From positions 1-52,756 of the IMG/VR virus record IMGVR_UViG_3300003323_000185: a stretch of 52,756 bases of DNA; one strand, 5' to 3'. This DNA comes from a virus. Below, piece by piece: positions 1,890 to 18,362 of the stretch. Below the pieces are notes generated by a model that searched no databases, was not told the origin of the DNA, and saw nothing but the letters and a program-made list of their open reading frames with translations. Each line of letters begins with the position of its first letter. Within the stretch, counting starts at the first letter, position 1. The translations under genes were made by a program, and so were the position numbers.

Positions 1890-4800
1890 ATGGCTGCTGC
1901 GGAAGCATTGTCAAAATCCGTTAATAAGCTAGAGAAGCAAGTAGGCTCACTTAACGGTGCCAATTTTGCTGCCATTTCTAATGAGCTAAGAAAGATCGCT
2001 GCCCCTAAATTTCAGTGGGATGAAGGTCTTCGCCAGGCAGATTTGCTTACCAGTAAGATCAAGGCTGGTAAGCTTTCTGTTTCTCAGTATATTGATGCAT
2101 GGAAGACTGGTGCGCAGCAAATCGCGGACCAGCAAGCAAGAATTGCTCGTTCTACCTCAACCCCAATGGGTAATGGTATTCATGCCATGTCTGTTCCAAG
2201 CTCAGCATCTATTGAAAGTTCTGTAACATCAATTGAAAAACTAAATCGTGTATCTCAAGCTTATGGAGATATTCTAAGTGGTTTAGGAACAAAGATTCAA
2301 GACTGGGGTAAGAATACTCAGTGGGCTGGTAGACAGCTTAGCGTTGGTTTGACAGTTCCATTTACTATGGCTGCTGCGGCGGCAGGAAAATATGCTCTTG
2401 ACGTCGATAAGGCGATGGTTCACATTGAAAAGGTATACGATGGGTCAACCAAGGGTCTTCGTGACAACGCAATGCAGGTTTCCATGGATATCACAAAGCG
2501 TCTTGGTGTTTCAGTAAAGTCCAGCCTTGATGTAATGGGTGAACTAGCTGCTGCCGGTAAGCAAGGTCAAGAAATGATGCAGCTTACCACAGAAGCTCAA
2601 AGACTTTCAGCTCTAGGTAACATTGACCAGGCGGAATCAATCAAGGCTGTTATTTCAATGCAGTCTATTTGGAAAATGTCTACAGAGGATGTAGCTAAAT
2701 CAGTTAACTACCTGAACGCTGTTGAAGCTGCAACCCCAACCAACTTGCAAGATTTGGTTGACTCTATCCCTATTGCTGGTGCTATGGTTGCTCAGCTAGG
2801 TGGTACCCTAAAGGATACAACTACTTTGCTTACTGCGTTCAAGGAACGTGGTATTTCTACTGTTGAAGGTGCTAACGCCATCAAGACAGCTATGAACCGT
2901 ATTCTTAATCCAACCGAGCCAGCAAAGAAAACATTCCTACAGCAAACTGGCCAGGATTTGGATGAATTGGTTAAGAAAGCTAAAGGTGATCCACTACAGG
3001 TATTCCAAGCATTATCAGATGCAATTATGGGTGGTAATATTGCTCTTGAAGATCAGCAAAGAGTAATTTCTAAGGTAGTAGGTATTTACCAGTCATCACG
3101 TATTACTGGTTTGCTACAGGGTCTTCAGGATAAAAATGGTGCGGTAAACGCAGCAAAGGCATTAAGTCAGAAGACTGATGCAGAACTAGCAGCTATTGCA
3201 AGAAAGCACGAAGAGGCACTAACACATTCAGCTTCTGGTCAATTTACCATTGCTGTAGAATCATTTAAGGCTCAATTGCAGGCATTTGGTCAGTTTGCAA
3301 TTCAGCTCGCCACTAAGATTATTAAGGGATTTAGTGGCGTTATGGATTTCTTTAATAAGCTTCCTGAACCACTTAAGTGGGCTGCATTGATTCTGGGCGG
3401 GATGACCGCGCTCGCCGGACCACTGTTAATGATTGTTGGTTTGGTTGGTAACCTTGTTGGTTCTGTAATGAAGGCCGGGGCCTGGTTCATGTCTATCGGT
3501 AAGGGTTATAAGACCATGACTCTTGAAGAAAAAGCTGCGGAACTTCAATCAAAAGCTCTAAATGGAGCTATGCTCACACAGGCTCAAACTACTCAGCTTT
3601 TGATTTATAATCTAGATAAATTACAGGCTGCCTATACAGGTATGAATGCTGCTGCTGCACAGAGTATGATTACCAAGGGTGCCTACACAGATTTTGATGC
3701 GCTCAAGAAGAGACGCGACGATGCGATGAAGGCAGAAAAGGACGCCGCCGCACGTGTTGCCGAACTTGATGCTCAACGTACCAAATTGTTGAATGATCCA
3801 AGTAAGGTTACAAAGTCGTCTTCATTTGCCGGAGGAATGATTTTCCGTTCACCTTCAGGTCGTGAGCAATTCAACAAGCTTAATGAAGAAATTGAAGCTC
3901 AGCAAGCAAAGCTTACAGCAGCAATTAATGAGCGAAAGAGTGCTGTTACTGCTGCAATTAATGCTGAAACTGCTGCCATGAGTGCATCACTCAAGGAACA
4001 GGCAATGGCCGTACGCGCTGCTGCTGTAGCCGCTGGAAATAACGAAGCACAAGTTGTGACTGCTGCTGGCAGATCATTCAAGCAAGACGCTGCTGGAAGA
4101 TGGCAAAAGTTTGATACTGAAACTGGAAAATTCGGCGGATTTGCAAGTAAGGATGATCAGAAAGCTCTAAAGGAAGGTTGGAACAGCGTAGCTGTTGCAA
4201 CTAACAATGTCGCAGATAATGTTGAAAAGGCTGGAAAATTCCAGAAGGTATTTAACCAGAATGTTGGATTTGGTCTTGCTACTGTAACAGGAATTGCCGG
4301 AATGGCTGCCGATTCCGGATCTTCATTTGAGAAGTGGATGAATTACATTAGCTTGGCTGCAATTGGATTGACAACAATTGGCCCACTCCTAAGCACCATT
4401 GGTAATAAAGTTAAGGGTATGAAGATTATTGAAAACATGCTCGGGTCCAGCGGTGGTGTAGGTGGTAAATTAAAGGGTCTTACTTCTGGTATTGGTGGCA
4501 TGGTAAGCAAACTGTTTGGACCAGTAGGATTGGCAATTGGTGCTGGTATCGCTGGTGTGACAGCCCTATTCTCTATTATTACAGCAAAGCAGCAGGAGCA
4601 GCGTGAATATCAGAATAACCTAAACAACTCTACTGATGTATGGGTTACCCTGTTGGGTAAGTCTCGTATTCAATGGGGTCAGATTAAGGATGCTTCTGGA
4701 CAGGTTAAGGATACTGTTGATTCACTTGCTAACTCACTACGTGCTTCTGAAGATCCAAAGACTCAAGCACTTTTGAAGTCATTGCGTGAATCTAGTGGAA

Positions 4801-7800
4801 CTGACTTGTTCGGTAACGCAATGAACGAAGTATTCCGTATGCAAGGTCAAGGTTTTAATGCTACCGAAATTGAAAAGTCTTTGCGTGCTGCTTTGACTGC
4901 TGCCGGAAAGTCATTGAAAGAACAGGATGACATTTGGGCTCAAATAAAGGTGCGCTTGCAATTTGATAATGCCAAGGGTGATCTTGATGCCTTTGCCAAG
5001 GATTCAGCTTCACGATTCAAGGATATTTATTCAAAGGCTTTGAATGATCGTCAAGGATTTAGTTACGCGCACCAGGGCGATCAGTACAGCATGGCTACAG
5101 AATTCTCTTCAAAGTTCATGCCGGATATTCAGCGTGAAGCTCAAACAATTGTTGATAGATTCGCCAACCTTGATGGTGTTGATCGTAAGGTAGCTGTTCA
5201 ACAGATGGCCGATAGTATTGGAGATATTACAAAGCAATCATTCGAAGCTCTCAAGCAGAAGGCTCCTCAGCAATTCGCGGGAAGCTACCAAGATGCTATT
5301 AAGTCAATGCTCACCTATGACGATAAGAATCATCGATACTTTGTAGACGCTCCAAAGATGCGTAATGAAGGAAAAGATACAAACTTTATCTCAAATGCCC
5401 AAGATCTAGCTAAGATGACAAATGCTGAACTTGACCTAGCTCGTGCTATTGGTCAGGCAATGCATTTGAGTGATGAACAGATCAATAAGATCAATAGCAT
5501 GAAAGATATTGTTCCTCTTCTTTCAAATGCCAACTTTACTGCTACTCAGGTTCAGGAAGCATATAATAAGGCGGTTAATAATGCTGCCTCATCTGGTAAT
5601 GCTCTAACAGATGCAGAAAAGCAAAAGCTTGCACAGACCTACGCTACAATTTTTGGCCTGGATGCTGCTAAGCTTTCAACTAATGGTTATGCACAATCTA
5701 CTGCCGATGCAACTAAGAAGATCCAGGAAAATGCTAAGGCTCTTCAAGCATTTATTCCAGCTCTAAAGGATGCTGCCAGCGCAGCAGATGATTTCTGGCA
5801 AGAGCAGGCAAATCCAGGAACTGATCAAGGTTCAGGATTCGGCGGGTTGGCGCAGCAGATGCTTGGTACTACTTCAACAGATCAGGCTAAGGCACTTACT
5901 GATCGCGTGAAGGGCATTTACTCTGGAACCATGGATCAAATCTATCAGTCTTACTCAGACAGCGCAGCGGAGATTTGGCAACAACGTCTAGATAATATTT
6001 CAGCAGGCTTCGAAAAGAAGAAGAAGGCAGTTCAAGCTTCTATTGACCAGTTTGACAAGAATTACCAGGCAAAGCAACAAGCATGGTCTGACCACTGGGA
6101 TGAAGTTATGGATGCAAGTAAGAAATCTTTCGATGATCGTCAAAAGGCTATTGAAAATGAAGCTCAGGCTCAGCTTGATGGTATTGACGCTCAAATTGAA
6201 GCAATCCAGGCACAGCAGGAAGCTGAAGATGAACTAGAAAAGCAGCGTCAAAAGTCATTCGATGCTGAAAAGAAGCGTATTGAGCGTATGGCTGAGTTGG
6301 CTAATAGAAATATTGACTATAACAGGGCTCTTTACAGTGGAAATCTAGATGAAGCTGCTCGTGTTCAGAATAACACTGAATCTTTGACTGTCGGTTGGGC
6401 AATTGACGATTCCGATCAGGCTGCTCAAGATAGGGCTGACGAGAAGTCTAAGATGAATGATAAGCAGATCAAGCAGCTTGAATCTACCAAGGAACTTGTC
6501 AATAAGCAGAAGCAGGCTAAGCTTGATGCTCTTAAGGAAGAAGAAGATGCCACAACCAAGTCTCTCGAAAAGCAACGTGAGGCGGAGCGTCGTTCAATGG
6601 AGGCTTCAAAGGAAATTGAGCGTGAGCGTATGCAGGCTCATCTTGATAGCCTTAACCAGCAACAGCAGGCCGCTGAAACTACAGAGCGCAAGAAGCAAGA
6701 ATTACAGCGTCGTACTCTAGATATTCAGCTTGCTACCCTAAAGGCTTTCATTCCACAAAATGAACAGCAATTGAATGACCACATCAATCGTGTTGGTGCG
6801 GCATATGGTCAGTTTGGTTTGGGATTGCAGGGTGCAGGTAGTATCTGGGGTCAAATTGTTGGTAATGCTTTGCAGAATAACGTAGATATTGCACGTCAGC
6901 AAATGTCTAGCGATGCCAACTGGGCTGCTTTTGGTGCCCAGGTAGCAGGTGCCATTTCTCAGGGTGCCTTTGGGTTGAGCTTGCAAGACTTCATGAACCT
7001 ATTGCGTACAGGTAATCCTCCTGCCGGTTGGACTCCACCTAGTGCAACTCCAAAATGGCAGAACAGTGCAAATGGAACCACATTTGCGCCTGCTCATGGA
7101 CCTGCTGGTGGATTTGCATTCCGACACGCTGGTGGTCCAGTTGATGATTCTCCTGGTTCACGTAATGGACTTAGTGGTGCATTGCAGTCAAGCGAAATTC
7201 CAATGATTCTTCAACGCGGTGAATTCGTTATTAACAAGGATGCAGTACAGCGTATTGGTACTCAAAACCTAAATAGAATTAACGCGGGTAATCCAAGGTC
7301 ATTCGATCCAGGTGCCAACATCGCCGGTATTGGTGGTATGATTGCTGCCACCATGGGTTCATATATGACTCAAATGGCCGTTAATAGCATTGGTAGTTAC
7401 TATGCTTCTCAGAACTCAAATATTGCTTACGCTCTTGGATACATGCAGGCGGGGTTAATGGATGCAATTGACTTCGCTAAGGCTCAGGATGGTAAGCCAT
7501 ATATTTGGGGTTCCGCTGGTCCCGTAGGTTATGACTGTTCAGGTTATATGTCTGCTATTGCTAACGTATTGACTGGAGCAGGAAATCCTTACAAGCGTGT
7601 CTTTGCAACTGGACAGGTTACTCCTGGTGTACCATTTGGACCATTCGTTCCTGGTGGAGGAGGACCATTTGAAATTGGTGTTAAGCATGGTAATCCGGGT
7701 CACACTGCTGGTACCTTGAATGGTGTTAATGTGGAATCAACAGGAAATCATGTACGCTATGCAAAGGATGCTCATGGTGCTCGTGATAGACAGTTCACTA

Positions 7801-8501
7801 TGCTATTCCACATTCCACCAGAAAATATTGCTTCTGGTAGTTGGACAGGAACCGGTGGTTCTGAAGGAATGTCTGGTGTTCGTGCAATTGTTCAGCAGGT
7901 AGCTGCTACTCGTGGTTGGGGTGGTGGAATGATGTGGGAGGCCCTTGATTGGCTTATTTCACACGAATCAAGTTGGAATCCAAATGCACAAAACCCAACC
8001 TCAACAGCATACGGTCTATTCCAATTCTTGAATTCAACTTGGGCTGGATATGGAATTCCAAAGACTTCTGATCCTCGCTTGCAGGCTGAAGCCGGTATGC
8101 GCTACATTGCAGCACGTTATGGTAATCCACTAGGAGCTAAGGCGTTCTGGCAAACTCACCACTGGTACGATGGTGGTGGAGATCTAATGCCTGGATTTAC
8201 CAATATGTATAACGGAACCAACATGGTTGAGACTGTTCTTACAAATGGTACAACCCGAGCAGTCGTGCGAGCATTGGAGAATGCTAATTACAGTTATGAT
8301 GGATTTAAGGATGTTCTACGCGACTTCTCAATTCCAGCAATGAGTGGCACAAGCTTTGACAATCCAATGTCTAACACATACAATTATGATATTAATATTG
8401 ATGGATCAGGATTGTCAGCCAAGGAACTTAAGACAACCATTAAGGAAGTAATTGAAGAAACTCACATTAGAGCGGATAAGAAGAGAGGATTGAGGAAGTA
8501 A
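1890..8501 (+). CDS. Tape measure protein with NlpC/P60 and lytic transglycosylase-like domains
   Basis: 2203 residues from the first ATG. The real start is probably upstream: the frame is open from 1821 and reads TSANIGINFDVTANTAQA before M1890, with no ATG, GTG or TTG (see findings). Residues about 150-430 resemble the TP901-type tape measure core, hydrophobic stretches lie near 497-527 and 875-897, and a long charged coiled coil spans about 1370-1615. Near the C-terminus is an NlpC/P60-like papain fold with YDCSGY (Cys1883) and His1938. An SLT/lysozyme-like domain follows with Glu2026 in SHESSWNP and AYGLFQF. At roughly 0.15 nm per residue the tail would be about 330 nm. The two hydrolase domains would open the cell wall during DNA entry. 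Confidence 0.93.
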   Translation: MAAAEALSKSVNKLEKQVGSLNGANFAAISNELRKIAAPKFQWDEGLRQADLLTSKIKAGKLSVSQYIDAWKTGAQQIADQQARIARSTSTPMGNGIHAMSVPSSASIESSVTSIEKLNRVSQAYGDILSGLGTKIQDWGKNTQWAGRQLSVGLTVPFTMAAAAAGKYALDVDKAMVHIEKVYDGSTKGLRDNAMQVSMDITKRLGVSVKSSLDVMGELAAAGKQGQEMMQLTTEAQRLSALGNIDQAESIKAVISMQSIWKMSTEDVAKSVNYLNAVEAATPTNLQDLVDSIPIAGAMVAQLGGTLKDTTTLLTAFKERGISTVEGANAIKTAMNRILNPTEPAKKTFLQQTGQDLDELVKKAKGDPLQVFQALSDAIMGGNIALEDQQRVISKVVGIYQSSRITGLLQGLQDKNGAVNAAKALSQKTDAELAAIARKHEEALTHSASGQFTIAVESFKAQLQAFGQFAIQLATKIIKGFSGVMDFFNKLPEPLKWAALILGGMTALAGPLLMIVGLVGNLVGSVMKAGAWFMSIGKGYKTMTLEEKAAELQSKALNGAMLTQAQTTQLLIYNLDKLQAAYTGMNAAAAQSMITKGAYTDFDALKKRRDDAMKAEKDAAARVAELDAQRTKLLNDPSKVTKSSSFAGGMIFRSPSGREQFNKLNEEIEAQQAKLTAAINERKSAVTAAINAETAAMSASLKEQAMAVRAAAVAAGNNEAQVVTAAGRSFKQDAAGRWQKFDTETGKFGGFASKDDQKALKEGWNSVAVATNNVADNVEKAGKFQKVFNQNVGFGLATVTGIAGMAADSGSSFEKWMNYISLAAIGLTTIGPLLSTIGNKVKGMKIIENMLGSSGGVGGKLKGLTSGIGGMVSKLFGPVGLAIGAGIAGVTALFSIITAKQQEQREYQNNLNNSTDVWVTLLGKSRIQWGQIKDASGQVKDTVDSLANSLRASEDPKTQALLKSLRESSGTDLFGNAMNEVFRMQGQGFNATEIEKSLRAALTAAGKSLKEQDDIWAQIKVRLQFDNAKGDLDAFAKDSASRFKDIYSKALNDRQGFSYAHQGDQYSMATEFSSKFMPDIQREAQTIVDRFANLDGVDRKVAVQQMADSIGDITKQSFEALKQKAPQQFAGSYQDAIKSMLTYDDKNHRYFVDAPKMRNEGKDTNFISNAQDLAKMTNAELDLARAIGQAMHLSDEQINKINSMKDIVPLLSNANFTATQVQEAYNKAVNNAASSGNALTDAEKQKLAQTYATIFGLDAAKLSTNGYAQSTADATKKIQENAKALQAFIPALKDAASAADDFWQEQANPGTDQGSGFGGLAQQMLGTTSTDQAKALTDRVKGIYSGTMDQIYQSYSDSAAEIWQQRLDNISAGFEKKKKAVQASIDQFDKNYQAKQQAWSDHWDEVMDASKKSFDDRQKAIENEAQAQLDGIDAQIEAIQAQQEAEDELEKQRQKSFDAEKKRIERMAELANRNIDYNRALYSGNLDEAARVQNNTESLTVGWAIDDSDQAAQDRADEKSKMNDKQIKQLESTKELVNKQKQAKLDALKEEEDATTKSLEKQREAERRSMEASKEIERERMQAHLDSLNQQQQAAETTERKKQELQRRTLDIQLATLKAFIPQNEQQLNDHINRVGAAYGQFGLGLQGAGSIWGQIVGNALQNNVDIARQQMSSDANWAAFGAQVAGAISQGAFGLSLQDFMNLLRTGNPPAGWTPPSATPKWQNSANGTTFAPAHGPAGGFAFRHAGGPVDDSPGSRNGLSGALQSSEIPMILQRGEFVINKDAVQRIGTQNLNRINAGNPRSFDPGANIAGIGGMIAATMGSYMTQMAVNSIGSYYASQNSNIAYALGYMQAGLMDAIDFAKAQDGKPYIWGSAGPVGYDCSGYMSAIANVLTGAGNPYKRVFATGQVTPGVPFGPFVPGGGGPFEIGVKHGNPGHTAGTLNGVNVESTGNHVRYAKDAHGARDRQFTMLFHIPPENIASGSWTGTGGSEGMSGVRAIVQQVAATRGWGGGMMWEALDWLISHESSWNPNAQNPTSTAYGLFQFLNSTWAGYGIPKTSDPRLQAEAGMRYIAARYGNPLGAKAFWQTHHWYDGGGDLMPGFTNMYNGTNMVETVLTNGTTRAVVRALENANYSYDGFKDVLRDFSIPAMSGTSFDNPMSNTYNYDINIDGSGLSAKELKTTIKEVIEETHIRADKKRGLRK

Positions 8502-8911
8502 TGCCAAATATTCTAGTTCTTCCCGTCGATGCTGGGTTGGCAATTAATGGAAATCGACTCTCAGATCATAACAGATCTTCGATTTCCATCAGCCAAGATC
8601 GTATTGAGAATCGTAAACGTATGGCTGATGGAACTATGCGCACTTTTGTTGTTGCTCAAAAGCGTAAGTTCAAGACATCTTGGAGCTACTTACCAGTAAG
8701 AGACAATCAAACTGTTGATGGTTTTTGGGGAGCACAATCCTTAATAAATCATCATACCGTTACTTTTGGTGAGTTTACTTTGAGACTGTCCTATGGTGAT
8801 GGTACTCATGAAGATGTTTTGTGCATGTACGATGACTTCTCATGGCAGCTGAAAAAGCGCGGGAAGTACACTGATCTATACGATATTGATGTTACCTATG
8901 AGGAAGTGTAA
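8501..8911 (+). CDS. Distal tail / minor tail protein
   Basis: 136 residues starting in a TAATG overlap with the tape measure stop. It has a beta-rich pattern with many aromatic residues and no enzymatic motif. In siphoviruses the first small gene after the tape measure usually encodes a distal tail protein linking the tube to the hub, so that role is inferred from position and size. The tight overlaps on both sides show co-translation with its neighbours. Confidence 0.7.
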   Translation: MPNILVLPVDAGLAINGNRLSDHNRSSISISQDRIENRKRMADGTMRTFVVAQKRKFKTSWSYLPVRDNQTVDGFWGAQSLINHHTVTFGEFTLRLSYGDGTHEDVLCMYDDFSWQLKKRGKYTDLYDIDVTYEEV

Positions 8912-11900
8912 TGAAAGATATTGACAGTTTCTTTGAAACTGCCATATTGCGTGGATACGCAGTGCCAGGAAGTCTAAGGGTTATTGCAGAATGGAACTAC
9001 AATAGCCTTTTTGACGTATCTCCAGTTAATGATCCAGACGATACCGGATGGGTTTTGAATAAAGATCTATTTCCAGCCAAATCAGTTGCGGATCAACTTA
9101 GGCCAAGTACAGGTGTGTTCTATGGAATCACCGACGAGGCTTTAACTGATGCATCTACACTTGGACTAGATGCCAATCGTTATTACACTATTGATGAGCT
9201 TAATAACTACAAGTATTGGATTTGTCCTACACCAAGTTCTCCAACTCCAAATGATAGTGACCTTGGATTTAATATTATCACTGATTATGCGGTGTCTCGT
9301 GGAACTTTGTTGCTTGATTATGGTAATTTCCTCAACATGAACAAGCTTTCTGTTACGTTTAACCTCGGACCAACCCCGGCGGACTGGAGTATTTGGGTTT
9401 TTGAGCAGACAGCTAATGATTGGGTAGAAATTAATAACCCTACTATCGATCCTATTACAGGAAAAGCACAGGTGTGGTGGGATGGGGCTGCTTGGGTTAG
9501 CACTCAGCAACTAAATCAAACTGTTTACAGAAAAATCTCTAAGATTAAAATGGAGGTTCGTAGTCTTACCGAGCCAAACAAGCGCTTGCAAGTAATTGAA
9601 GTATCCGGTCGTAGAGAAATTGATATGACACCTCGCGTTCAAGAGTACAACATCAGTACTTCAATGGATGATGAGTCTTACTTGTATCCAGTAGGTAGAA
9701 TGTCTGCCAATGATGGTCGTATTACGTTTAACAATGATGACCTTGCTTTAAACGGTGAAGATCCTACTTCTGATTTCTACGGAGCATTGGTTGGCTGGTG
9801 TCAATATAGAACCTATGTAAGTTTTGACTTGTCCGAATGGGGCGGGTCATCAAATTATCTAATGCGTACTGGAACAATGTACGCCAATGACTTCCAGCAG
9901 GTTAATGAGTACGAATACCAAGTAGAACTTTTCGATATCTTCAAGATTCTACAAACAATTAACTGTCCCGCTCTTCTTATTGAAGGCCAATCGATTGCCA
10001 GGATTGTTTCAACCATTTTAGATATGGTTGGTGTTGATGCTTATCGATTTGAATTTAATGATTTTGATGTTACTAATAACGTTAAGTATTTTTGGACAGA
10101 TGGTACGCAAAAGGTATTTGAAGCACTAGATAGTTTGATGAAATCACATCAGGCTGCCCTTTTTGTAGATGATGATGGATTCATTAGACTTTTAACTAGG
10201 AATGATATTATTCCAGTAGCCGGAGAAGAGCCAGATTGGATTCTCAAGGGGGAAAAAGAAGGATTAGATCTAGCTGATATTATTACTTTGAAGAAAAAGT
10301 ATGCAATTCAGATCAATAAGGTAAACATCAAATATACAAAGCGTGAGGCTAAGACTGACGCTGCTGATATTAGAGAACAGCCACTAACTTCTCAAATTTG
10401 GCAGGCCGAGGATACTGTTGTTTTGCGTGCGGCCCCACTTGTAAGAAATATGTATATTGATAATGGCTCCGGAATTGGAAACTTTAGCTTTGAAGGATAC
10501 GATGCCATTAACGGAATGCACGACTGGGCGGCATATAACTGTACCTTGACTCAATCAATGGATCATGCCTACGAAGCATATTATTCAGGAAAGATCGTTC
10601 CCAATGGTATAGCTGCTCAAGTAAGTATTGAATCGACTAGAGTAAATGTTCCAACTGATAAGAGTTTGAGTACCACTGCAAGAGTTTGGTTAAATACTGT
10701 TGCGCCAAATAACTTCTCAATGACTGTGAGATGGTGGGATGCAGACAACAATCTAATTTCTAGATCTGATGAGTGGGTAAGTGTTCCTGCGGGTAGCTGG
10801 CAGGAAGTTGTTACCACATTTGTAGCTCCAAATGATGATGCTAAATTTGCGACTGTTATGCCAACTTTGCGTGGCACACCAACACAAACCTGGTACATCG
10901 ATAGAGTTATTTTGTATCCAACTGGATACTTTGATGCTGCTGATATTTGGGTATCTCCGGAAAAGGCTGCAACATGGCCATTTAAGGGCAAGGTAAATAT
11001 CGACGGCGAACTTATCGAATTTGATGGAAAGGCATACGGCTGGTGGGAATGGACCAATGGAACACCGATCTATCGAGAGAATCTCGTTCACAACGAAGAT
11101 GAAAGAAAGCAATGGGATAGATATAGTTATAATTCCTACACTCTTGGCGGTATTCAGGGTGGAGTAAGCACTAATCCAATTTACCAGAATAGATATATTG
11201 GTCGTATCCATGTAAGTAAACGTGATGCTGATGATTCTGGACAGCGAAAAGTCCACAGAACAAATCAGAAGTACGGATGGTATACCATGGATATGTGGTG
11301 TCAGAAAAGTAATTCGTGGGGGTTCCCTGGAAAATACTGGACTCCTGGAGGTAATCAGTACAACTATAATAATCTTAGGGATTGGGATAAAAAGATTAAC
11401 TGGACTGAGTGCCAGTCTCGTGTAACTGTTTCAAATAGTATTTTGACTGTGGACAATTTAAGTCATAACAGTGCACCTGATCATCCATCACATGCAACAA
11501 TTGCAACAATTGACATGGGTGATACGGAATACCGTGAATTTGGAACACGCTTGAAGATTCGTAGTAATACGAAAGGTCAAGCAGTTATAGTCCTATATCC
11601 AACAAACTTGACTGGTTATGATAATAATAACCCATCCACAACTGAGATCTTTAATGCTAATCGCTGTTATCTAATTAATATTTTCAGTACCGAATATGTA
11701 GAATCAAAAAACAGAGCAGTAAATGAAATTACCGTTCAATATAAAAATGGTGATTCATTGAGTAGGGTTTGGAGTGGTGGCCAGGTCGGTGGTAATGAAG
11801 GAAAAATTAAGATTGACTATGACAAGTGGTACGACATTGACATTGTTTATCGAGATGGAGCCGGAGAGAACCTTGAAGGTGGTGGATTCTATGGAGCAAG

Positions 11901-13173
11901 ATCAGCAATTGAGATTTATGTTGATGGTGCTTTCATGGATACATTCTATCCAGGTCAAAGTGACAGTATTAGACCAACAAGTCTTATAGGTATTGGTGCA
12001 CGTGATACTACCATTGTAGATTTCGAATATCTGTATGGATCTACCACTAGCACAACAGGTAGGGCAATTTATGGAGATAACGAGCTTTTTGATGCATATA
12101 ATCTAACTCTTGACGCGGGAACGAATCTATATGAGTCTATTACTCTTCCGATTGGAAATGACTGGGAGGGTGACGGAGTAATCAGTCTATCAACATTTGG
12201 TGCTGACGCATCACTTATAGATTTTGAAGTTATTAGTTATGATAGATCACAGAGTAAGAAGCTAATTGGAAGTACTCCGATAACCTTGAAGAAGGAACAG
12301 AGACTAAGCTACCAACTAGCCGATATTATGCAAATCCCGGGCCAGTTAAGAATTAGGTATAGTGCTACCAACCCTATCTCTATTTGCTTTGAGTACAGTA
12401 AGGTGCGTAATTATCCATATGGAATTGACACAGAGCCAATTCCACCACCAAGTTCATATTATGATTTGCTTAAGGGTGGATTCGTATCAACGAAAGTGGA
12501 TGAAATGTTCTTCACTCCTCAGAGATTCTTTAATACTCAGTATCTAAGTCATAACATCACAACCCCAACCTACCTCTCTTATTTCTTTGAAGATTTCGGT
12601 TCAATTGTTCATGAGGTGCGAGACTTTGAGGTTGATTTTGATCCAGCACCAGCAAAGGGTGTATCTGTGTATTCAAGCAATCCACATTCAAAGGTTATTA
12701 ACCAAAGATATAGTCCAGTTAAGGGTTATTTCACATTGGTTAACACTTCGCACCGTGATGAGATTATTAATGGTACTGAGGAATTGGATGAAAGCAATAG
12801 CATTGATTATTCACTTTTGATGTATGGATATGTACTCGAAGAAAAGGGTAGCGATACAGAAGAGGTAAAGAATGAGTTGAGCATTCGTCGACATGGAACA
12901 ATTTCTGAAGACCTTGATGCAGATTGGATTTTCACAAAAGACGAAGCAAAAGCATTGGGAGCATGGATTGTCGATCACTGGGGTGATAGCATGGATACTC
13001 TAGAACTTCAAACATTCCTTAGTCTTTTCCTTGAAGTTGGTGATCATGTCAAGGTACATTACCAAAACGCTAATATAAATCCTGATTGGTATTATATTGT
13101 CGCGGGTAAGGAATTGAGCTATGACAATGAAGGGTTGTCATTTAACATTATAGTACGTAGGGTAACTCCATAA
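8911..13173 (+). CDS. Large minor tail protein (tail hub with carbohydrate-binding modules)
   Basis: 1420 residues, beginning in a TAATG overlap. Residues about 210-480 resemble the siphovirus hub region (SMDDESYLYPVG, then segments typical of Gp37-like tail proteins). Residues about 515-680 look like a CBM4/9-type beta sandwich, starting near NFSFEGYDA and ending with WYIDRVILYP. Residues about 870-1060 look like a concanavalin/LamG jelly roll, with KWYDIDIVYRDG and IEIYVDGAFMDTFYPG. The C-terminus returns to a hub-like domain. It probably sits at the tail tip and binds host-surface sugars. Domain limits are estimated by eye. Confidence 0.8.
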   Translation: MKDIDSFFETAILRGYAVPGSLRVIAEWNYNSLFDVSPVNDPDDTGWVLNKDLFPAKSVADQLRPSTGVFYGITDEALTDASTLGLDANRYYTIDELNNYKYWICPTPSSPTPNDSDLGFNIITDYAVSRGTLLLDYGNFLNMNKLSVTFNLGPTPADWSIWVFEQTANDWVEINNPTIDPITGKAQVWWDGAAWVSTQQLNQTVYRKISKIKMEVRSLTEPNKRLQVIEVSGRREIDMTPRVQEYNISTSMDDESYLYPVGRMSANDGRITFNNDDLALNGEDPTSDFYGALVGWCQYRTYVSFDLSEWGGSSNYLMRTGTMYANDFQQVNEYEYQVELFDIFKILQTINCPALLIEGQSIARIVSTILDMVGVDAYRFEFNDFDVTNNVKYFWTDGTQKVFEALDSLMKSHQAALFVDDDGFIRLLTRNDIIPVAGEEPDWILKGEKEGLDLADIITLKKKYAIQINKVNIKYTKREAKTDAADIREQPLTSQIWQAEDTVVLRAAPLVRNMYIDNGSGIGNFSFEGYDAINGMHDWAAYNCTLTQSMDHAYEAYYSGKIVPNGIAAQVSIESTRVNVPTDKSLSTTARVWLNTVAPNNFSMTVRWWDADNNLISRSDEWVSVPAGSWQEVVTTFVAPNDDAKFATVMPTLRGTPTQTWYIDRVILYPTGYFDAADIWVSPEKAATWPFKGKVNIDGELIEFDGKAYGWWEWTNGTPIYRENLVHNEDERKQWDRYSYNSYTLGGIQGGVSTNPIYQNRYIGRIHVSKRDADDSGQRKVHRTNQKYGWYTMDMWCQKSNSWGFPGKYWTPGGNQYNYNNLRDWDKKINWTECQSRVTVSNSILTVDNLSHNSAPDHPSHATIATIDMGDTEYREFGTRLKIRSNTKGQAVIVLYPTNLTGYDNNNPSTTEIFNANRCYLINIFSTEYVESKNRAVNEITVQYKNGDSLSRVWSGGQVGGNEGKIKIDYDKWYDIDIVYRDGAGENLEGGGFYGARSAIEIYVDGAFMDTFYPGQSDSIRPTSLIGIGARDTTIVDFEYLYGSTTSTTGRAIYGDNELFDAYNLTLDAGTNLYESITLPIGNDWEGDGVISLSTFGADASLIDFEVISYDRSQSKKLIGSTPITLKKEQRLSYQLADIMQIPGQLRIRYSATNPISICFEYSKVRNYPYGIDTEPIPPPSSYYDLLKGGFVSTKVDEMFFTPQRFFNTQYLSHNITTPTYLSYFFEDFGSIVHEVRDFEVDFDPAPAKGVSVYSSNPHSKVINQRYSPVKGYFTLVNTSHRDEIINGTEELDESNSIDYSLLMYGYVLEEKGSDTEEVKNELSIRRHGTISEDLDADWIFTKDEAKALGAWIVDHWGDSMDTLELQTFLSLFLEVGDHVKVHYQNANINPDWYYIVAGKELSYDNEGLSFNIIVRRVTP

Positions 13174-13174
13174 G

Positions 13175-13203
13175 TGGACACTGGTTGTTCTGGTTGATAT
13201 AAT
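13175..13203 (+). promoter_or_regulatory. Strong extended -10 promoter feeding a leaderless gene
   Basis: TGGACA (13175-13180), a 17-nt spacer and a perfect TATAAT (13198-13203) preceded by TGA as an extended -10. The expected transcription start is about 13209-13212, which coincides with the ATG of the next gene at 13212, so the mRNA would have almost no leader. Confidence 0.75.
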
Positions 13204-13211
13204 TAGATGAA

Positions 13212-13577
13212 ATGGACCAAGTACGCTCAGATCAAATTATTTCAGTAGCTGAAAAAGAGCAAAATAGATATTTTGCACCGCCAAGAGATTTAATTATATC
13301 AACTCAACCAGCTCCCGAGATCGTTCCGAAATCAAAAGATGCTGCGGAGACAGCACCAACTACTACTCAGCCTTCAACCGGCGGCACTAATTATGGTGAT
13401 AATCTAAATGACACTGTCCAGAACCCTCCGACACCAGCAATTAAGAGCGTCAAGAGTCAAATTGTGAATATCGCTGACGATGGAACTGTTACGGTAGATT
13501 TGGTGCTTGATGTTCAGGATATTCCAGGAATTACAGAATACGATATTAGGGTGGCTAAAGATGCAGGGAACCTATAA
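13212..13577 (+). CDS. Tail protein ending in the first half of an Fn3 domain (5' part of a split fibre gene?)
   Basis: 121 residues with no Shine-Dalgarno; the strong promoter at 13175 would start the RNA at the ATG. The first 75 residues are polar, with a Pro/Thr-rich linker. Residues about 76-115 look like the first strands of a fibronectin type III domain (VTVDLVLDVQDIPGITEYDI) but stop before the fold is complete. The missing strands appear at the start of the gene at 14439, in the same reading frame. This suggests one fibre gene cut by the gene at 13561. The 3' end overlaps that gene by 17 nt. Confidence 0.65.
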   Translation: MDQVRSDQIISVAEKEQNRYFAPPRDLIISTQPAPEIVPKSKDAAETAPTTTQPSTGGTNYGDNLNDTVQNPPTPAIKSVKSQIVNIADDGTVTVDLVLDVQDIPGITEYDIRVAKDAGNL

Positions 13578-14439
13578 GCTGATACAAGACGGCAAGGTGC
13601 TCGTTGCCAAGAACGTAATTACAAATAACGGTAAAGCCAGCATTCTCGATGCCGTCGCGGGGAAGTCAGCAGGATTTGCCTCATCTATTGTTGTTGGCAT
13701 TGGAGATACTGCTGCAACAGTTAATGATACTGCCCTTGAATACGCTATAAGCGGAAACGATGTAAATGCAGTAATTGTTGATTATGTCAATGAAAAGATA
13801 TTCTTTAAGGCAACACTCCCATCAAAAGATAGCTATGAGATTCATGAATTAGGATGTTTCTCCATTAACTATACCGGTGCTCAGAATGCATTTGGAGCTG
13901 GCAATATTGTATTAGTAAACTTTGATGAAAATGCAGTGTGGAATGACTCTGTTGGAACTTCAACCAGAGACGCAACCCATAGTCGTGTTGGGACAACATC
14001 CGTACAGTATTCTTCTTTTTCAAGTGCAAAAGGATACATGGAATTATTTAGTGATCTTAGTATTTTGCCAGCTACTGCGACATTTGATTTTGCGTATTAT
14101 ACAAACGGGGTTAGTTCAGTGGAGCTTAGATTCAAAGTAGACGATTCAAATTACTTTGAAGGATCATATGCCTCTTCAAATGGCTACCATATTAGCAAAT
14201 TGCCAGTAAGTTCATTTACTGCTACTGGTGCACCTTCATGGGTAAATATAACTCAACTTGAAGTAGAAGCTGCTGGCACTTCCGCAACAATTGCACTAGA
14301 TACATTACGTTATACCGTATCTAGTCAATCAGAAGCAATCAATGCGAATTTGCTGTCACATGTTATTTTGGATACCCCACAGAGGAAATTGCCGGGGGTA
14401 TCAATGGATATTGAATATATGTTGGAGCTTAATATCTGA
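13561..14439 (+). CDS. Minor tail protein (probable inserted gene)
   Basis: 292 residues from the ATG at 13561. A longer frame opens at 13507 but its extra residues are the shadow of the upstream gene. The N-terminus (GTYKLIQDGKVLVAKNVITN) resembles short tail or fibre attachment proteins. Residues about 125-270 look like a jelly-roll sugar-binding module. It lies exactly between two halves of an Fn3 domain and overlaps both neighbours by a few bases. No intron or endonuclease signature was seen inside it, so it looks like a tail gene that landed within another. Confidence 0.65.
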   Translation: MQGTYKLIQDGKVLVAKNVITNNGKASILDAVAGKSAGFASSIVVGIGDTAATVNDTALEYAISGNDVNAVIVDYVNEKIFFKATLPSKDSYEIHELGCFSINYTGAQNAFGAGNIVLVNFDENAVWNDSVGTSTRDATHSRVGTTSVQYSSFSSAKGYMELFSDLSILPATATFDFAYYTNGVSSVELRFKVDDSNYFEGSYASSNGYHISKLPVSSFTATGAPSWVNITQLEVEAAGTSATIALDTLRYTVSSQSEAINANLLSHVILDTPQRKLPGVSMDIEYMLELNI

Positions 14440-17400
14440 TGGATGTAGTAGTAAAAGGGTTAGATCCGGCCTCAAAATACATACTTCAAGCTAGAAGTGT
14501 AGGAAAAGATGGCAAACAATCACCTTGGTCTAATTCATTTAGAGTTACCACAATAAGTGATACCACCGCACCAAGCCCTGTTTCCGCATTATCATGGACA
14601 GTTAATAAGACTGCTTTTCATGGAACATGGACCAAGCCCACAACTGATTCTGATGGTAAACCGCTCAAGGATTTTAATGGTTATGAAATTACTGTAACAG
14701 CTAGCAGTATTTCAAAGAAGTTCATTTCTATGCAGGAAGTATTTGATTTTACCTTTGATCAAAATGTTGCTTCTTTTGGTACACCACAACCAAGTGTTCA
14801 GATTTCCGTTAAGGTTCGGGACATTATGGGAAATCTTTCAAGTGCCGTTACTGCAACCGCTACGAATTCTGTTCCAGCGGGATTGACTGGATTAACTGCC
14901 ACTGGAATCCCCGGTGCTATTTTCCTGGATTGGGATGATACTGTAGAAGATGATTTTAGTCGCTACGAAATATATAGCTCAACAATTTCTGGATTTACTC
15001 CTGGGCCATCAAACTTAGTTGCGACAACCTACAGCAGCCAATTCCAATTTCCTATATTGGATGTAGTTACCCATTATTTCAAAGTTCGTCAATTAGATGT
15101 ATTTAATCAGGCTAGTGGATACAGCTCTGTTTCCGGAACTGCATTAACAACAACTGGAATTGACACAACTCCACCAAATGCACCTTCAGCAATTGTGGTT
15201 ACTAGTGCCTCCGATTCTGCTGGTACTTCCCATATTGATGTAAGCTGGACCGCATCATCAAGTACTAACTTGGGTGGTTATGTTGTACGATACAGTACTG
15301 ACGAAGTAACCTGGCGATACATCAGTGTTCCCGCAGATAGCACCAATACAACTATTTCAAATCTTGTACCGAACACTGCGTATTATGTTAGCGTTGCGGC
15401 ATTCAGTTATGTATCAAGTTATTCTGCATGGATTCATGCTGGTACATACCCAATTACAACTGCCAAGGACACAACAGCACCATCAACACCAGCAATTCCA
15501 ACCGTATCCTTCAATACACAAATTGTTCAAGTGTCACATAATATGACAAAGTCTGGTGGTGGAAATCTTGAGGCAGATGTTAGATATCTTGAAGTCCATG
15601 CCTCTAGTACTTCAGGTTTTACTGCATCAAGCACTACCTTAATTGGAACTCTCGACGCGGCGGGCCAGGGAATTACTGTTGTTGGTAATTTCCCAGTACC
15701 AGTAACTACCAGTGTTGCTAATATGTATTGGCGTGTAATTGCTGTAGATTACGCAGGTAATAAATCCACTCAATCATTCCAGGCTACTGGTTTGCCAGGG
15801 TTGATTCAGGGAGCAAATATTGCTGATGCAACTATTACAAATGCAAAGATTAATGATCTTTCTGCTGCCAAGCTTACTGCTGGAACTGCTTTTGTTAATA
15901 ATCTTAGCATTCAATCACAATTGACTTTGGATGCTGCTACCGGATATATTGCTTCTACCAACTTCAGCATTCCAAGTAAAACTGGTTGGCGTCTGGATCA
16001 GAATGGTTTAGTTATCTATGATGGATCAATTGCAGCCAAGTCATTGCTTTTACAAAATGGTAATAATATTGCTATGCCCGCTTTTGCTGATTTTGAGTTC
16101 AACGAAAGCTATTACCATGATACAGCAAATAATCCTAGTACCACTACATTAACTGCAACTTCAGGCATGTTAATGGCAATGCAATACACTGGCGTTAAGA
16201 CTGGTAAACAATCTTTGCGTGTATGGAATACTGCTATTACTGGCGCTACACTACACAAATTCCACTTCGGATTGGGCGGGGATTCAGCAACTGGTGTTAA
16301 CATTGATGTTAATCCTGGAGATTATATCTTCTCTATCTGGGCAAAGAAGAATGGTGCAGTAGACCAAACATTGAAGTTAGGTTTATATCCAGATACCGGT
16401 TCAGCAATTGAATCTGCTGGTATAACAGTTAATACCACTGCATGGACACGTTATAGTGCGGTATTGACAATTCCTTCAGGTGTAAGCAAAGTAAAACAAT
16501 ATATTAGCTTGCAAGCTGTAACTACTGGATACGACATTGTAATTGATGCATTGCAACTAGAACCAAAGCTCACTGCCGAAACAACACCATCAGCATGGAA
16601 ACCACCTTCAACAACAATAATTGATGGTGGATCAATTATCACTGGTTCTATTAGATCCAGCGCATCAAGTGCAACTGTCCCGGGTCAACCAGCATGGTCA
16701 ATTAATACTGCTGGTAATATGCAAATTGGTGATGCTTTAGTTCGCGGTAAGCTAATCATGGGTCTAACCGCAGATAGCCGTAACCTTGTGCCAAAGGATT
16801 ATGCAAGCTGGGAAAACTCTCCATCATTTTACTATGATGGATCAAACCTTCCTAATCTTACAAATATGGATCGTGGTGGGACAAACTATACTTTCTTGCG
16901 TATCGCTTTGGATACTACTGGATCACCTCCACATGGTACTAATGGAATGCGCATGTATTCATCCGGAACAGCAGCAGCTAGTTCACCAGCTTACCTTTAT
17001 GCAGGCCATGTAACTAACTTTAATCTTGTTCCAGGTCAGCAGTATATTTATTCTTTCTATGTAAAGAATAATGACGCAACTAAGAATACCCAGATTGAAT
17101 TTGGTCTTTGGAACGGTACTGATTTTAACATCCCATTGCTAACCAATCAGGCTATCACAACTTCTTATGTAAGATATTCAGGAATTTTCACTGCTGGTCC
17201 TACTCAGTCTAACCAGTTTTATATTGGAGCACTTACTCAGGTTGGTGAAACTGCTTGGGATATTACTTGGGATGCTATTCAGATCGAAGCCGCACTAGGT
17301 GATTCAACTACACCTAGTTCATTTACCGACGGTACAATTGGTATTAGTTCTATGGCTTCCGCCAATTATACGGCGGGTGCGCAGGGATGGAGCATTAACA

Positions 17401-18362
17401 GTGATGGTACTGCTGAATTTAACAATACTTCAATTCGAGGTGGATTGCAGGTTAGTGGTACCTCAGGAACAATCAAGACAGACGTTGCCAACACTTATCC
17501 TACCATTTTCTATTATGCAAAGACTGGTGGTCAATATGGATTCATCAACTCTGCCGGTGGTGGAAATACAAAGTCTTGGATTGGTGTTAACAGTTCCCAA
17601 TATGCTGCGGCAACAGGTGGACACACTCTTAGACCGCGAGTATGGCTAGCAGATTCTATTAGAATAGAAAACGTTGATGAATCAGTAGCAGGTGGAAAGT
17701 ATCAGGGTGGAAGATTGATTCTAGATAACCAGTCTTCCCAGATGACAGTATACGACTCAACTAACTTGGCACGAAACCTTCTTGGTTGGGGTAATGATGG
17801 AACTTGGTTTATGAATGCTTATGCATCTACAGGATTATTTAGTTCCTCAATTACCTCTGACATGTCATCTATCACACTGTCACACTTCTTGAACGGTTCA
17901 TTTAAATCCGGTGTATTGTTCGATGATACAAAAATTCGCTGGTCAACATTAAACGGATTTAATATTGATATGTCGGGAACAACTGGTTTCTTGACAAGAT
18001 CTCCTGATGGAAGTTCATGGTTTGCACCAACCTTGACAGCTCCATCAGGTGGTACTGGATCACCATGGATTCAGAGGTCTGGATGGACTACCTTTGGATG
18101 TAAGGTCACTCCGGATGGTATGGTAATATTTAGAGGATCACTTTTGCCAAATGGTGCTGCCAACGCAGGAGATGGAAAGCAGATTTGTACATTACCATCC
18201 CAATTTAGACCAGCAAATAATGTTATTTGTCCAGTTGCTGTTGATACAACTGGTGGTACTGGTAGCCCACGTGTATGGATTCAACCAAGTGGTGCTGTTT
18301 TGATGTATGGTGTCGGTAACAACGCTGTTGGTTTCGACAATGTACAATATTCACTAATCTAA
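14439..18362 (+). CDS. Fibronectin type III tail fibre protein with carbohydrate-binding modules
   Basis: 1307 residues, starting in a TGATGG overlap. Residues 1-37 are the second half of an Fn3 domain (GLDPASKYILQARSVGKDG). About four more Fn3-like domains follow at roughly 43-143, 145-238, 241-340 and 345-445. Next comes a segment typical of phage central fibres (GANIADATITNAKINDLSAAKL, about 455-485). Two related jelly-roll modules lie near 545-700 and 790-945, each with a 'FSIWAKKN / YSFYVKNN'-like strand. The C-terminal 350 residues are Gly/Ser/Thr-rich and probably form the receptor-binding tip. The N-terminal half domain is abnormal for an independent gene. Confidence 0.85.
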   Translation: MDVVVKGLDPASKYILQARSVGKDGKQSPWSNSFRVTTISDTTAPSPVSALSWTVNKTAFHGTWTKPTTDSDGKPLKDFNGYEITVTASSISKKFISMQEVFDFTFDQNVASFGTPQPSVQISVKVRDIMGNLSSAVTATATNSVPAGLTGLTATGIPGAIFLDWDDTVEDDFSRYEIYSSTISGFTPGPSNLVATTYSSQFQFPILDVVTHYFKVRQLDVFNQASGYSSVSGTALTTTGIDTTPPNAPSAIVVTSASDSAGTSHIDVSWTASSSTNLGGYVVRYSTDEVTWRYISVPADSTNTTISNLVPNTAYYVSVAAFSYVSSYSAWIHAGTYPITTAKDTTAPSTPAIPTVSFNTQIVQVSHNMTKSGGGNLEADVRYLEVHASSTSGFTASSTTLIGTLDAAGQGITVVGNFPVPVTTSVANMYWRVIAVDYAGNKSTQSFQATGLPGLIQGANIADATITNAKINDLSAAKLTAGTAFVNNLSIQSQLTLDAATGYIASTNFSIPSKTGWRLDQNGLVIYDGSIAAKSLLLQNGNNIAMPAFADFEFNESYYHDTANNPSTTTLTATSGMLMAMQYTGVKTGKQSLRVWNTAITGATLHKFHFGLGGDSATGVNIDVNPGDYIFSIWAKKNGAVDQTLKLGLYPDTGSAIESAGITVNTTAWTRYSAVLTIPSGVSKVKQYISLQAVTTGYDIVIDALQLEPKLTAETTPSAWKPPSTTIIDGGSIITGSIRSSASSATVPGQPAWSINTAGNMQIGDALVRGKLIMGLTADSRNLVPKDYASWENSPSFYYDGSNLPNLTNMDRGGTNYTFLRIALDTTGSPPHGTNGMRMYSSGTAAASSPAYLYAGHVTNFNLVPGQQYIYSFYVKNNDATKNTQIEFGLWNGTDFNIPLLTNQAITTSYVRYSGIFTAGPTQSNQFYIGALTQVGETAWDITWDAIQIEAALGDSTTPSSFTDGTIGISSMASANYTAGAQGWSINSDGTAEFNNTSIRGGLQVSGTSGTIKTDVANTYPTIFYYAKTGGQYGFINSAGGGNTKSWIGVNSSQYAAATGGHTLRPRVWLADSIRIENVDESVAGGKYQGGRLILDNQSSQMTVYDSTNLARNLLGWGNDGTWFMNAYASTGLFSSSITSDMSSITLSHFLNGSFKSGVLFDDTKIRWSTLNGFNIDMSGTTGFLTRSPDGSSWFAPTLTAPSGGTGSPWIQRSGWTTFGCKVTPDGMVIFRGSLLPNGAANAGDGKQICTLPSQFRPANNVICPVAVDTTGGTGSPRVWIQPSGAVLMYGVGNNAVGFDNVQYSLI

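Follow-up and report, generated by a model that had tools for sequence, protein, structure and literature searches.

Two halves of a predicted fibronectin type III domain lie in separate, conserved tail genes in a family of phages infecting soil bacteria

The window analysed here, which spans the full 52,756 bases of a phage contig, contains a tail gene (B) lodged between two others (A and C), of which the first appears to end with the opening strands of a fibronectin type III (Fn3) domain and the last to begin with its closing strands. This arrangement raises the question of whether a fibre gene has been broken by an insertion, whether its pieces are rejoined during expression, or whether two separate proteins contribute to one domain. 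The positions of the three ORFs reported in an earlier note on this DNA were confirmed (Table 1), as was its statement that B overlaps both neighbours, the overlaps being 17 nt with A and 1 nt with C (TGATG, containing the stop codon of B and the start codon of C). The starts of A (13212) and C (14439) are each divisible by 3 and lie in one frame.

Gene A weakly matches phrog_11696, up to position 119/120 of that profile. The product of the gene preceding A is presumed, from its PHROG match and gene order, to be a hub or Tal-type protein that serves as the attachment point for A, while none of the gpJ/hub Pfam models matched it. Further upstream, residues ~1992-2096 of the tape measure protein (window 1890-8501) match transglycosylase and tape-measure PHROGs, and perhaps represent a cell-wall-cutting domain.

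Table 1. Features of the tail locus. Positions refer to the window, except in the last three rows, where they refer to the loci named.
Feature	Position	Strand	Description
Upstream tail gene	8911..13173	+	1420 aa; phrog_10359 minor tail protein; C-terminal alignment with relatives
Gene A	13212..13577	+	121 aa; N-terminal part variable and probably extended; half Fn3 at C-terminus
Fn3 first half, strands A, B, C	13431..13574	+	C-terminus of A; AF2 strands and alignments
Putative ribosome-binding motif of B	13548..13554	+	AGGGTGG (Arg-Val), within strand-C codons of A
Gene B	13561..14439	+	292 aa tail protein; ATG at 13561; phrog_9983, E 1.7e-49
Carbohydrate-binding-module-like beta-sandwich of B	13891..14325	+	residues ~111-255; fold search of AF2 model
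Putative ribosome-binding motif of C	14424..14427	+	GGAG, in conserved end of B
Gene C	14439..18362	+	fibre/minor tail protein of 1307 aa; matches phrog_11445 (E 2.4e-191), starting at profile position 1
Fn3 second half, strands E, F, G	14439..14573	+	N-terminus of C; profile match and AF2 model
Second, complete Fn3-like domain of C (FNIII-2 counterpart)	14574..14873	+	AF2 model residues 391-490, pLDDT ~88-95
Further Fn3 repeat in C	15204..15413	+	PF00041, E 2.6e-12
Phage_Tail_Tip region of C	15660..16034	+	PF09327, E 5.1e-11, C residues 408-532
CBM_4_9-like stretch in C	16320..16514	+	PF02018, E 2.3e-5; score 25.2 bits (curated cut-off 25.9)
A-type genes in tandem, L104	4185-5971
A-type genes in tandem, L109	3161-5963
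Extended A-type gene, L114	~6983-7849

The C-terminal sequence of A (VDLVLDVQDIPGITEYDIRVAKDAGNL, followed by the stop codon) lies where strands A-B-C of an Fn3 are normally found, and the N-terminal sequence of C (MDVVVKGLDPASKYILQARSVGKDGKQSPWSNSFRVTT) corresponds to strands E-F-G. The first ~45 residues of C match positions ~51-82 of the 84 positions of the Pfam fn3 profile (PF00041) and carry the second-half signature (the L-P-G-Y-R-W-S region), with the first half of the profile left unmatched in the four C heads tested. The corresponding E-values were 0.0003-0.002 for three relatives and 0.017 for the C head of the window, all of these matches being under the Pfam gathering score. No Fn3 was recognised from sequence alone in the last ~45 residues of A, either by Pfam or among PDB sequences, and joining the half of A to C heads added no more than about 1-2 bits to the Pfam fn3 scores.

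Structure prediction with AlphaFold2 (AF2) employed a 490 aa input that follows the frame of the window from residue 60 of A to residue 140 of C, with stops entered as glycine, and an alignment in which most rows were unpaired, holding either an A tail or a C head, and two readthrough rows from relatives were paired. The resulting model displayed a confident Fn3 built from the A tail (strands at model residues 18-28, 34-44 and 50-57; pLDDT 80-91) and the C head (pLDDT about 88-94), the 287 nonsense residues between them being disordered (pLDDT mostly 25-42). This model is a single-chain surrogate, in which the nonsense linker keeps the halves together, and is not proof of two-chain binding. 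Of the seven strands of a complete Fn3 sandwich, the composite domain is without strand C'.

The composite and the next domain together aligned with the two-Fn3 protein 7zcb_B (VIA-align; Z 11.0, 3.7 Å rmsd, 171 residues, model range 12-490). As the second domain accounts for only ~100 model residues, at least about 70 of the aligned 7zcb residues must be contributed by the A tail and C head or by the linker. This tandem, composite FNIII-1 plus the following domain, thus matches a two-Fn3 structure; such a pair ahead of the fibre is a feature of the gpJ/pb3 type. The second Fn3-like domain of C was also matched to 5fn8 (Z 12.7, 1.9 Å over 86 aa). Many of the other fold matches listed involved the second domain alone, or both domains at 7-13 Å rmsd; the many eukaryotic Fn3 proteins listed reflect the common fold only, and phage tail proteins were not represented among the matches listed.

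The distribution of this arrangement was then examined among relatives. A tblastn search with B retrieved 129 phage records (124 Streptomyces and five Rhodococcus phages), all at <60% identity, and the equivalent search of phage records with A gave no match. In the full annotated records (Enygma, Jay2Jay, Coruscant, Emma1919 and SparkleGoddess of the Stanwilliamsviridae; Francesca and NiceHouse of Rhodococcus), the tape measure gene is followed by a small tail gene, then a large minor tail gene, a 'hypothetical' gene of ~120-140 aa (A), B and C. More loci were obtained by scanning IMG/VR with profiles of C and B; for searches of contig collections, neither the alignment of A itself nor a joined A+C alignment offered a conserved stretch of sufficient length. 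Following removal of duplicates, 54 distinct complete loci were assembled, representing Stanwilliamsviridae, Rhodococcus phages such as NiceHouse, and metagenomic phages (locus L083 ends before C). The A-B-C order and the same cut place were observed in all 54, with A ending within five residues of the half-Fn3 in 51, and for this reason the half-domain ends are not a product of chance. The open frame upstream of the C head extends for at most 29 aa, and C therefore never contains the missing first half.

An uninterrupted gene joining both halves, a search for which had been proposed beforehand in the earlier note, was encountered in none of the 54 loci; a fused gene would have surfaced because the profile of C would match it, although the searches began from B and C and a very divergent fusion could escape them. 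That note had also described a tail gene that appears inserted so as to split a fibre gene; a disruption peculiar to this phage does not hold, as all relatives found keep the order of the three genes and the point of the cut. It had further named two findings that would together speak against a divided domain, namely the presence of these three genes in every relative and a predicted fold in which neither end is a half Fn3: the former was indeed observed, the latter was not. What stands is its central claim of an Fn3 divided between A and C with a tail gene in between, on the basis of the fn3 match of the C head, the AF2 strands and the retention of both ends across the 54 loci.

A recent insertion of B that broke the fibre gene of this phage, leaving halves that decay or have been rebuilt, is extremely improbable. 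The overlapping ORFs and the mid-domain cut resemble such an event, but distant relatives share the arrangement (B being 23-65% identical), both halves are clearly constrained, and no target-site duplication was present at the ends of B. The arrangement is an old and conserved one, not a broken gene, and is found in a large family of viruses infecting soil bacteria.

Very little probability likewise attaches to a continuous Fn3 produced by joining the A and C products through RNA splicing, translational bypassing or readthrough. The common frame of A and C in the window, which would suit such joining and which the earlier note had correctly reported, is a coincidence without meaning, being shared in just six of the 54 loci and different in the other 48. 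Moreover, 29 in-frame stops, counting that of A itself, were identified between A and the start of C; A has its own stop, and C has its own start with a putative ribosome-binding motif nearby. The region 12900-15200 yielded no intron or other RNA family in Rfam at E≤1, and the intact, conserved gene B does not encode a homing endonuclease. The suggestion of joining at the RNA level is thus contradicted by the stops, the differing frames and the Rfam result, and an intron-split gene was rejected on the latter two grounds. Taken together, the stops, the motifs preceding B and C, the lack of an RNA family and the lack of a target-site duplication render splicing, bypassing and recent insertion unlikely.

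In most relatives examined, the putative ribosome-binding motif of B is located at the same place, the AGG codon of the nearly invariant strand-C Arg of A (for example, TTAGGATG and TTAGGGTGG), such that this codon doubles as part of the motif. In a close relative (L009), an HNH endonuclease gene (4329-4931; PF14279, E 4.8e-11) was observed between A and B, indicating that the A/B junction accepts a mobile gene.

The AF2 model of the B product (pLDDT 89.8) consists of an N-terminal region, a sandwich (residues 111-255) and a C-terminal hairpin. The sandwich was matched to the CBM11 structure 6r3m (Z 13.6, 3.1 Å over 145 aa), and these searches with B turned up no Fn3 match. From its fold alone, B may be an accessory glycan-binding tail protein. 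The structure closest to the sandwich was the turret of Haloferax virus HFTV1 (8qpg; Z 16.1, 2.1 Å over 138 aa), which links a tail protein of Streptomyces-type phages with the turret of a haloarchaeal virus.

The observations are best explained by separate A and C chains that complete one Fn3 in trans and thereby couple the tail-tip hub to the fibre, a reading that we regard as probable. The possibility raised in the earlier note that the halves still join as two chains is supported by their conservation and by the AF2 surrogate model. A and C would be made as separate proteins, and strands A-B-C of the former would pair with strands E-F-G of the latter to form FNIII-1 between two chains. In the Fn3 topology, strands E and B would be neighbours in one sheet, and strands F and C in the second; given such pairing across chains, neither half should fold alone, and the composite Fn3 would constitute an obligate joint between tail tip and fibre. 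The N-terminal part of A presumably rests on the hub protein that the gene just upstream encodes, this choice of binding partner being a guess. C would bring FNIII-2 and the Fn3 repeats beyond it, together with the tail-tip region and the receptor-binding end, while B would be a separate accessory tail protein, the translation of which between the two halves would ensure that all three are made together. The pairing within the virion and its stoichiometry are what we infer from these data. The literature searched yielded no virion proteomics or mass spectrometry for these phages.

It is unlikely that the ends of A and C are not partners, with the A tail instead binding the hub or B as a small strand motif while the C head packs elsewhere or on a neighbouring C of the trimer. 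The lack of an Fn3 sequence match for A alone is in keeping with this alternative, and the linker could have helped the modelled pairing. However, the two parts sum to one Fn3 minus the C' edge strand, with the same boundary in every lineage; furthermore, the A tail is confident when modelled with C, and the model of B is complete without it.

Regarding the origin of the split domain, lambda gpJ and T5 pb3 comprise an HD hub scaffold, a linker, FNIII-1 and FNIII-2, followed by the fibre (PMC10721106). The present locus resembles these proteins in its place after the presumed hub gene, in the tandem Fn3 pair ahead of the fibre and in the PF09327 tail-tip region. However, gpJ is one chain, whereas here the hub, the first half of FNIII-1, and its second half plus fibre are encoded by three genes, with B in between; the hub, FNIII-1 and FNIII-2 were thus never on one chain, being distributed over three separate ORFs in all 54 loci. 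Single-chain organization was observed in three distant relatives (L045, L047 and L049), in which the profile of C aligns within an ORF of 1400-2000 aa. L045 and L049 carry PF13550 and PF24801 (gpJ FNIII-A), with complete Fn3s in one chain, and in L049, where FNIII-1 is intact, the profile of C covers the end of that domain and continues unbroken into FNIII-2. Judged by eye, a further ~15-20 residues of L049, comprising strand C' and loops, are absent from both A and C, and strand C' is missing in all split lineages. When the joined profile was compared with the single intact relatives by hhalign, only the second half was aligned in L049, and nothing useful was obtained for L045 or L047. We favour, with moderate confidence, a gpJ/pb3-like ancestral chain that was severed within FNIII-1, at the loop following strand C, this direction of change being the one we infer.

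A precedent for cutting a hub domain between two proteins is provided by the HDII-insertion domain, which is split over gpL and gpJ of lambda and over gp13 and gp15 of RcGTA (PMC10721106). As in the present locus, one tail-tip domain is spread over two proteins, and further tail genes lie between the two that encode them; the domain concerned is a hub insertion domain and not an Fn3, and the cut differs. The split Fn3 would be a variant of this known hub-domain fission.

Completion of related folds by separate chains also has parallels. An engineered Fn3 cut in its central loop was reportedly rebuilt from the two fragments with high affinity by Dutta et al. in 2005; those fragments are said to reassemble in trans, as is proposed here, but they are man-made, whereas the present split is natural and conserved. 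In pilin donor-strand complementation, an incomplete Ig-like fold is completed by strands of another subunit; pilins lend one strand, whereas each chain would here supply about half of the domain. No description of a split Fn3 was found in the literature searched, most subscription journals being outside the reach of that search.

A divergent group of loci was found to encode additional, paralogous or extended A-type proteins. L108/L109 carry three A-type genes (525, 94 and 315 aa), L104 carries two (280 and 320 aa), and L114 has one extended gene of this type (about 280 aa). Conservation extends over the N-terminal region and the half Fn3, with 61-70% identity among the copies of L104 and L109; the copies diverge soon past strand C and, except for the short one, possess 190-433 extra residues. 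The four extended A proteins of L104/L109 had no match among Pfam or PHROG families. It is tentatively suggested that the half Fn3 of A acts as a docking plug, for which the C head would be a common socket accepting A-type proteins with different C-terminal domains. If so, one fibre trimer could be decorated with different, perhaps receptor-binding, domains, which would leave the composite Fn3 at its open loop.

The fit with the split domain of lambda and RcGTA suggests that tail hubs evolve by chain cuts inside domains. If true, a natural and conserved Fn3 formed from two gene products would represent an unusual tail-tip-to-fibre junction and would explain the small 'hypothetical protein' that always precedes these fibre genes. 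It would also give the A family, for which phrog_11696 is the nearest profile, a testable role, and would supply an evolved Fn3 plug-and-socket pair.
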